DNA of 64,000 bases, taken from NCBI RefSeq assembly GCF_008830185.1, contig NZ_WAGX01000008.1:248001-312000 (forward strand). Direction: 5' to 3'. The notes below the pieces were generated by a model. That model ran no database searches and had not been told where the DNA came from. It worked only from the letters and a program-made list of their open reading frames with translations. The DNA comes from Candidatus Galacturonatibacter soehngenii (GTDB taxonomy: Bacteria; Bacillota; Clostridia; Lachnospirales; Lachnospiraceae). This document shows positions 11,040 through 64,000 of the stretch, one piece after another. Each line of letters begins with the position of its first letter. The stretch's first letter is position 1. The translations under genes and the position numbers were made by a program.

Positions 11040-11379
11040 TTACAAAATGTGATTTTGCGTAACTAGAAGTAATACTTACTTCGAGTAACTTATTTTTTTA
11101 GTGCGGCTGCAGTGTGAACCACCTGGGTGTGTTGTTCATGCTGATATCATAGATTACAGACATACATGCCTGCCTGTAATTTTTGGAATGCAATGCGTTC
11201 CAAATGTGCAATTAAAATGTGAGATTACTCACGGTTATTGCTTTTAATACCGATATATTTATATCGGAAAGACTACGATCCATCTAATCGTAGTTGGATA
11301 CTATATAGTATCTCAATTAGGGACAATATTAATACAGTAATAAAAACGAACGTACACATTTCAGACACTGTAAACAGTG
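11040..11379 (+). other. Chain of short perfect hairpins in the rpmJ-rpsM spacer
   Basis: The 417-nt spacer has no believable gene. It holds, in order, inverted repeats with arms: TGAAC/GTTCA (11115, 11134), ATTACAG/CTGTAAT (11153, 11174), TTTGGAATGC/GCGTTCCAAA (11182, 11195; one G-U), GTGAG/CTCAC (11219, 11228), CCGATATA/TATATCGG (11250, 11260), CTACGAT/ATCGTAG (11273, 11287), the 16-nt palindrome GATACTATATAGTATC (11297-11312) and CACTGT/ACAGTG (11366, 11374). They lie after the terminator at 11059-11099. A structured mRNA leader for the alpha operon is one explanation. Confidence 0.7.
11059..11099 (+). terminator. Intrinsic terminator or attenuator after rpmJ
   Basis: GTAACTAGAAGTAA (11059-11072) pairs with TTACTTCGAGTAAC (11076-11089) over 14 positions with two mismatches, and TTATTTTTTT follows. 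An alternative hairpin upstream (TTAC-AAAAT / ATTTT-GC-GTAA, 11040-11062) uses the GTAA at 11059-11062 and would exclude the base of this stem. A regulated read-through into rpsM is therefore possible. Confidence 0.65.
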
Positions 11380-63475: not shown

Positions 63476-63505
63476 TTGACAAACATAGACTCTTATAGTT
63501 ATACT
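63476..63505 (+). promoter_or_regulatory. Promoter of the leader-peptide/rsgA-like transcription unit
   Basis: TTGACA (63476-63481), 18 nt, TATACT (63500-63505). It gives a leader of about 200 nt before the GTPase gene. Confidence 0.85.
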
Positions 63506-63560
63506 GAATAAGTAGAGAAAACTTCAATTTGCTTTATTTACGAAAGGAGTTGATTAAATT

Positions 63561-63593
63561 ATGAGAAAAGTAAAAATGGTGATGAATCAATAA
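63561..63593 (+). CDS. Leader peptide of 10 residues
   Basis: ATG to TAA reads MRKVKMVMNQ. AAAGGAG at 63543-63549 gives it a strong ribosome site, although the spacing is 11 nt. It is followed directly by a stem-loop and then by a terminator, ahead of an rsgA-like gene. This is the plan of translation attenuation or transcription attenuation seen upstream of several ribosome-protection and methylase genes. Confidence 0.65.
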   Translation: MRKVKMVMNQ

Positions 63594-63604
63594 TTTAATA
63601 ATGA

Positions 63605-63689
63605 AGTATGCAAAAGGAAATGCTTTTGTATACTAGGAAACCCTTTGTAAATACTGTATAAACAGGCTTGCCAATGGGCAAGTTTTTTT
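63605..63689 (+). terminator. Attenuator hairpins between leader peptide and rsgA-like gene
   Basis: AGTATGCAAAAG (63605-63616) pairs with CTTTTGTATACT (63623-63634) with one G-U; a second ATACT lies at 63651. The terminator CTTGCC-AATG-GGCAAG (63667-63682) is followed by seven T's (63683-63689). A shift of pairing from the first ATACT to the second is one possible switch. Confidence 0.75.
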
Positions 63690-63712
63690 GTACCCAAAAT
63701 TGGAGGAAAATT

Positions 63713-64000
63713 TTGAAAATGAAAGAAAATAAATCACTTATAAAAGCGATTGTAAGTGGAGTTCAAAGAGAGTCATTTGTATTATTATGTGAACAGCAAG
63801 AGATTCAAGCAAAATTAAGAGGAGTGTTCTATAAGGAAAATAGAGTATTCCCAGTTGTAGGTGATAAGGTATTAATAAGTCTCAATGAAAGTGGCGCTTC
63901 TATGATAGAAAGAGTTTTGGACAGAAAAAGTGAGTTTTCTAGAACAGATTTTTCAGGTCATGAAGCAAAATACGTAAAATCAATCAAGGAGCAAGTACTA
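63713..64000 (+). CDS. rsgA: RsgA-like ribosome-associated GTPase, N-terminal part
   Basis: 96 codons run to the window edge without a stop. The OB-fold domain is recognisable: IVSGVQRESFVLLCEQQEIQ, AKLRGVF, FPVVGDKV, ERVLDRKSEFSR. RsgA (YloQ) checks the 30S subunit during late assembly. The start is TTG at 63713 (6 nt after GGAGG) or ATG at 63719. The leader in front suggests that it is an extra, inducible copy, not the usual one beside the prkC genes; that is inference. Confidence 0.8.
   Translation, partial: MKMKENKSLIKAIVSGVQRESFVLLCEQQEIQAKLRGVFYKENRVFPVVGDKVLISLNESGASMIERVLDRKSEFSRTDFSGHEAKYVKSIKEQVL

Follow-up and report, generated by a model that had tools for sequence, protein, structure and literature searches.

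A probable ribosome-sensing attenuator ahead of an accessory RsgA-family GTPase gene in a Lachnospiraceae genome

The right end of a 64,000-nt stretch of DNA from Candidatus Galacturonatibacter soehngenii (the window) carries a second rsgA gene, rsgA2, behind a structured RNA leader. We consider it probable that this leader is a ribosome-sensing attenuator and that RsgA2 is an accessory GTPase induced by translation inhibitors, with ribosome protection as its most likely role. Computation supports the individual parts of the leader, the presence of a second RsgA, the joint conservation of leader and gene, covariation of the leader's helices, its competing pairings, and its sharing by other genes of the ribosome-protection type.

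A promoter, a Shine-Dalgarno (SD) sequence with a 10-codon ORF, two hairpins and a 7-T terminator all lie within nt 63476–63700, ahead of a two-gene operon. The features are as follows.

63476–63505, forward strand: sigma-70-type promoter, TTGACA-18 nt-TATACT, matching 11 of 12 consensus positions
63535–63549, forward strand: 5′ arm of helix P1, UAUUUACGAAAGG, containing the SD of the leader ORF and pairing with 63641–63653
63544–63549, forward strand: SD AAGGAG, 11 nt before the leader ORF
63561–63593, forward strand: leader ORF of 10 codons, MRKVKMVMNQ-stop
63605–63634, forward strand: P2 hairpin of 12 bp, 3′ of the leader ORF stop, supported by the fold and by conservation
63641–63653, forward strand: switch arm CCCUUUGUAAAUA (consensus CCUUUCGUG), with the SD (P1) or the terminator loop as alternative partners
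63664–63689, forward strand: intrinsic terminator AGGCTTGCC-AATG-GGCAAGTTT plus 7 T (stem 63664–63685, T run 63683–63689)
63702–63706, forward strand: SD GGAGG of rsgA2, from the sequence
63713–64000 and on to L009:4708, forward strand: rsgA2, accessory RsgA-family GTPase (PF03193), starting at TTG 63713 or ATG 63719
L009:4702–5676: APH-like kinase gene, APH family by Pfam, overlapping the 3′ end of rsgA2

The promoter begins 5 nt past the stop codon of an upstream alpha/beta-hydrolase gene and outscores the 11 other promoter-like sites found in 2 kb. The promoter, the ribosome site with its short ORF and the 7-T terminator are present as an earlier, sequence-only reading had described them. 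The anti-terminator-like stem of that reading also corresponds to real structures, but these are two separate things, the stable hairpin at 63605–63634 and the SD-pairing arm at 63641–63653. Since the gap of about 24–30 nt between the T run and the start codon of rsgA2 leaves no room for another promoter, the terminator sits inside the transcript leader. The 191-nt leader folds with −49.8 kcal/mol, compared with −29.6 ± 3.9 for shuffled sequences (z −5.2), and none of 200 shuffles was as stable. P1 pairs at 12 of 13 positions and appears as a bulged helix in the minimum-energy fold. With its one mismatch, however, its longest run is 10 pairs, a length reached by 89 of 5000 shuffles; this weakens the significance of P1 in the window taken alone, and the case for the helix thus rests on comparison. 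A search of the leader against Rfam, with its T-box, riboswitch and ribosomal-protein leader families, gave no match at the gathering score. The sole Rfam match in the window is an S4-Clostridia ribosomal-protein leader at 11267–11321 (RF03140, 48.4 bits).

The comparison was made with an alignment of 21 leaders and three helices: P1 (the SD with CCUUUCG), P2 (the hairpin) and P3 (the terminator). Upstream of rsgA2 relatives the same order is kept, namely GAAAGGAG, a short ORF, TAA-ACTGAATA, a GGCA...TGCC hairpin, AACCTTTCGTGAATA and the terminator. In the 21 leaders 71% of the paired cells are kept, against about 39–48% with slid partners, and the covariation score is 0.249, against 0.174 ± 0.014 when shuffled and at most 0.119 for slid partners. 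The base pairs of P2 are 91% kept with both sides changing, and the stem of the terminator covaries as well. A covariance model of the rsgA2 leaders (R1) matches 41 of 93 rsgA2-type loci, every one upstream of the gene and in its orientation, with no further match in the 568 kb searched. Some 20 of these 41 loci are outside the training set, though a handful represent one genomic region retrieved twice. At 19 housekeeping rsgA loci R1 gave no match (best E 0.65). A second model (R2), built without the window from 20 leaders of other genomes, recovers the window leader at 63529–63694 with 49.1 bits and E = 8.6e-8, while the runner-up in the 64 kb has E = 2.9. The structural model was needed because a leader model built on sequence only found nothing in the window. 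A strict DNA pattern searched in 299 genomes of the family gave 3 matches only, all before rsgA2. The sequence-only reading had named, as an outcome that would count against it, a leader ORF varying while the gene was kept; in silico, the leader is found conserved alongside rsgA2 in many relatives.

About half of the rsgA2-type loci are without a class A match: some carry a class B leader, some run into contig ends, and in some no leader was seen. The class B leader keeps the TAACTGAATA motif within a longer ORF; in Butyrivibrio and others it stands ahead of GNAT-RsgA2 fusions and of genes closely related to them. Its features are a GCGAGGT SD, an ORF with TAACTGAATATAGTATGA, a GACCGTGGC terminator and then GGTCTCCATACTAT. 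The RsgA2 clade with class B leaders is sister to the RsgA2 of the window, and therefore the class B leader probably derived from class A. N-terminal extensions of about 170–240 aa are found on RsgA2 at L017, L018, L069, L076, L085, L088, L090, L095, L097, L099, L101 and L160, mostly behind a class B leader; in L017, where it was tested, the extension is a GNAT acetyltransferase domain. Many class A leaders (L041, L042, L045, L059, L070 and others) have a second large hairpin with a T run, of the CCGCAG...CTGCGG TTTTTGCG type, between the first terminator and rsgA2, sometimes with a second short ORF; the window leader has one only. A different arrangement occurs at an RsgA2-type gene of Listeria monocytogenes next to pnp (L159:1830–1926), where a short ORF MAIVKMENLIINTGVFYL directly precedes the gene with no intervening terminator, and the gene may be controlled at translation.

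The CCUUUCG element is nearly invariant and can pair either with CGAAAGG of the leader SD or with the loop of the terminator, which almost always contains AGG; in the window the corresponding loop region is CAAUGGG. Over the 21 leaders, the duplex of SD and arm has a mean of −9.5 kcal/mol, against −4.2 ± 0.43 for shuffled sequences, and that of arm and terminator −6.4 against −4.3 ± 0.43; no shuffle was as low in either case, though the 21 leaders are related and the comparisons are non-independent trials. Such dual pairing suggests a putative attenuation by ribosome stalling.

Antibiotic induction, the exact stalling position, read-through and a protective action of RsgA2 are inferred, in the following proposed sequence of events. 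RNA polymerase would start at the 63476–63505 promoter and produce a leader with the 10-codon ORF. When ribosomes initiate on this ORF and clear it normally, the CGAAAGG of the SD arm would be free to form P1 with the CCUUUG arm, the intrinsic terminator would form, and rsgA2 would be off. Should an inhibitor of translation arrest a ribosome on the start codon or an early codon of this ORF, the SD arm would be covered, and the CCUUUCG-type arm could then invade the terminator loop (AGG, or CAAUGGG in the window). The polymerase would then continue past the terminator into rsgA2 and into the phosphotransferase gene that overlaps it. The product, a 30S-binding GTPase paralog, would restore or protect small subunits or ribosomes in the manner of HflXr, Tet(M)-type and ABC-F proteins. 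If the start region and SD are masked, the terminator nevertheless persists in the static minimum-energy fold computed for the window leader, so that antitermination would need co-transcriptional action or another partner.

The gene behind the leader extends 708 nt past the end of the window (L009:3719–4708) and encodes a protein of 329 aa. RsgA2 scores 170.9 bits against Pfam PF03193 (cut-off 30), 177.5 bits against TIGR00157 (cut-off 100) and 25 against the OB domain model PF16745, slightly under its cut-off of 27. The GSSGxGKS, DTPG and C-H-C residues are invariant, and the GTPase and zinc motifs of the housekeeping protein are kept. By these scores and motifs, RsgA2 belongs to the RsgA/YjeQ GTPase family (PF03193), with a predicted circularly permuted GTPase of G4-G1-G3 order and a C-terminal zinc cluster. 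The housekeeping RsgA is encoded at C3:382414–383259, with a PASTA-type kinase gene before it and an epimerase-like gene after it (neighbors named by eye), and is about 30% identical to RsgA2; the two strong full-length family matches bear out the second rsgA foreseen from the sequence. Proteins about 42–52% identical to RsgA2 are found in about 12 of 60 relatives, and a housekeeping-type copy in nearly all. A tree of 101 proteins does not place RsgA2 as an orthologue of housekeeping RsgA: the two form separate clades with 100/100 support and a long branch between them, the inner branches measuring 2.28 and 0.95 substitutions per site. RsgA2 is taken as accessory because it was not found in two other members of the same genus. 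Among the genes close downstream of rsgA2 (n = 37), 13 are GNAT and 5 are APH genes. In the window genome, the rsgA2-APH operon is followed by a T-box leader (L009:5890–6109) and a threonyl-tRNA synthetase gene (L009:6203–7960; 585 aa, no TGS domain match).

The binding site of RsgA on the small subunit lies close to the decoding centre. Protection or recovery of ribosomes from translation inhibitors is the most likely role of RsgA2, by analogy, because of the company its leader keeps and the GNAT, APH and methyltransferase genes transcribed with it. The retained GTPase and zinc motifs also fit another function behind a real attenuator, in which RsgA2 would be a back-up assembly or quality-control factor that matures or rechecks the drug-damaged 30S pool and removes no drug. 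It is established for the family that the GTPase of RsgA is coupled to maturation of the 30S subunit. In E. coli, rsgA affects ribosome formation and a mutation in it has been linked to tetracycline tolerance (as cited in PMC10475562); the latter also serves as a precedent for the protective role. Nevertheless, RsgA2 is highly divergent from the housekeeping protein, as the two long branches show, and it is patchy among genera and keeps company with GNAT and APH genes, which resembles a resistance gene rather than a spare part. A back-up role is therefore unlikely, though it deserves serious consideration.

The company of the leader was examined in three scans of 146, 398 and 396 genomes, whose samples overlap somewhat. 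The scans gave 48 matches, the window included. The leader precedes rsgA2 in 26 of them (one with a gap in between), a remnant of rsgA2 followed by an APH gene in one, and a short MutS2-like gene in seven. Two lie before Tet-type ribosomal-protection genes, one before an Lsa-like ABC-F gene (L145), one before another ABC ATPase, five before GNAT genes (two judged by eye), one before an APH gene (by eye) and one before a methyltransferase gene. Weak matches at L140, L141 and L147 (E 6e-4 to 5e-3) stand before unrelated genes or at a contig end and were taken as chance. The Tet-type and ABC-F proteins fall short of the curated thresholds set for the named families of resistance proteins, and so are regarded as relatives and not as proven resistance proteins. 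The occurrence of one leader family before Tet-type, ABC-F and drug-modification-type genes lends support to the view, put forward from the sequence, that the arrangement is typical of genes induced by ribosome-targeting drugs.

The short MutS2-like protein, found in Clostridia, has about 650 aa and covers profile positions 3–513 of 790. Its leader loci are L129, L130, L131, L132, L138, L142 and L144. It scores over the cut-off in 7 of 9 genomes searched, six of which also have a full-length MutS2, and by analogy this paralog is possibly another ribosome-rescue resistance factor. The top-scoring leader match of the phylum scan, L148, lies upstream of positions 165–1283 on the minus strand. An 81-aa remnant of rsgA2, with N- and C-terminal pieces joined, follows the leader and is itself followed by an APH-family gene; here the leader and the kinase have outlived the GTPase. 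At L149 and L153 the gene behind the leader encodes a GNAT protein whose long C-terminal portion is kinase-like by eye; the Pfam test of L149 confirmed the GNAT domain only.

These clients bear on what RsgA2 might do if it halted translation instead, by binding 30S under drug and preventing the subunits from joining for as long as the drug is present. Overproduction of RsgA in E. coli leads to fewer 70S ribosomes, slower growth and more persistence (PMC10475562). The same leader family, however, also lies before genes of the Tet-type protection and ABC-F kinds, and the known relatives of these act to restore translation; such hibernation seems to us improbable. Equally improbable is that the leader resembles classical biosynthetic attenuators in sensing a signal other than ribosome-targeting drugs, be it an amino acid, the charging of tRNA or a general fall in translation. 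A short ORF accompanies 61 of 62 matches of the leader model. The leader-peptide sequences are non-identical and differ between loci except for a Val four residues from the end (position −4), the sole near-constant residue, present in 53 of 58; the conserved item may be the Val itself or the RNA GGTR. Although this variability would suit a non-drug signal, no amino acid is dominant, no T-box or riboswitch matches at the leader, and the downstream genes are of ribosome-protection and drug-modification types rather than biosynthetic. A chance assembly of promoter, short ORF and terminator before an rsgA copy, for which one could cite promoter-like and terminator-like sites only modestly above shuffled counts in the region, can practically be dismissed, since conservation already speaks against it through the leave-one-out match (E = 8.6e-8) and an anatomy repeated in dozens of relatives.

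The preferred reading, a ribosome-sensing attenuator before a protective RsgA2, has its closest likeness in HflXr of Listeria monocytogenes. This GTPase paralog, encoded behind a leader-ORF attenuator, gives resistance to lincomycin and erythromycin (PMC6310831). Both are accessory ribosome-GTPase paralogs beside a housekeeping copy, with a leader ORF and a terminator/antiterminator; induction by stalled ribosomes is documented for HflXr/rli80 (PMC6310831) and would apply to rsgA2. However, HflX splits 70S ribosomes whereas RsgA binds the small subunit, and the peptide encoded by rli80 carries an RLR macrolide motif whereas the rsgA2 leaders are without RLR and have the constant Val at −4. The leaders of tet(M), tet(O) and tet(S) on mobile elements are similar in having a short ORF after AAGGAG, a terminator and a TTTTTATGCCC-type end. 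The tet(M) leader matches the model weakly at the right place (21.8 bits, E 0.0017 in 20 kb), far under most rsgA2 leaders; with tet(O) at 9.2 and tet(S) at 12.7 bits, all three were rejected as members of the family. The attenuators of vmlR, msrD and other ABC-F genes resemble the present one by architecture, with ribosome-mediated attenuation before a ribosome-protection gene, and the Lsa-like gene at L145 carries an rsgA2-type leader. The E. coli ORF toiL is likewise short and senses several classes of ribosome-targeting antibiotics, with tetracycline arresting the ribosome on its start codon, but it acts via translation and Rho, on another gene and with another structure (PMC12121999).

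A second RsgA under antibiotic control is reported in Streptomyces coelicolor, where the RsgA/EngC paralog SCO6149 is WblC- and tetracycline-dependent while its own paralog is not (PMC7157823). The WblC/WhiB7 regulon resembles the clients of the leader, by description, in joining a second RsgA with GNATs, methyltransferases, ABC proteins and TetM (PMC7157823). It differs in using a transcription factor in trans, whereas here each gene has its own cis leader. The claim that such a leader would be new for a ribosome assembly GTPase holds in that the paper on SCO6149 describes no leader of its own for that gene, but not in that an antibiotic-linked RsgA/EngC paralog was already known (PMC7157823). 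A report of a leader before rsgA was not found among open-licence papers, which is weak evidence of absence. Leader-ORF attenuation as a kind and an antibiotic-linked RsgA paralog in Streptomyces are thus already known. As far as the open-licence literature shows, what is new is the leader family, which Rfam lacks, together with the link between this family and RsgA2 in Bacillota and its occurrence before short MutS2, Tet-type and ABC-F genes as well.

On a wider view, which has about an even chance of being right, this undescribed family of cis leader RNAs, with its SD/CCUUUCG switch and V-x-x-x-stop ending, would form an antibiotic-stress regulon across Bacillota that works without a transcription factor as a counterpart of WblC/WhiB7, and RsgA2 and short MutS2, two of its commonest clients, would be two new classes of resistance factor acting by ribosome protection or rescue. 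Annotation pipelines label rsgA2 as an ordinary ribosome-assembly GTPase, so that a possible small-subunit resistance factor may have been overlooked. The shared leader offers a sequence handle for unrecognised resistance genes, and RsgA2, the GNAT-RsgA2 fusions and short MutS2 have already been flagged in this way. It also raises the question of whether an RsgA-type GTPase may rescue 30S subunits from drugs, as HflXr acts on stalled 70S ribosomes and Tet(M) at the A site.
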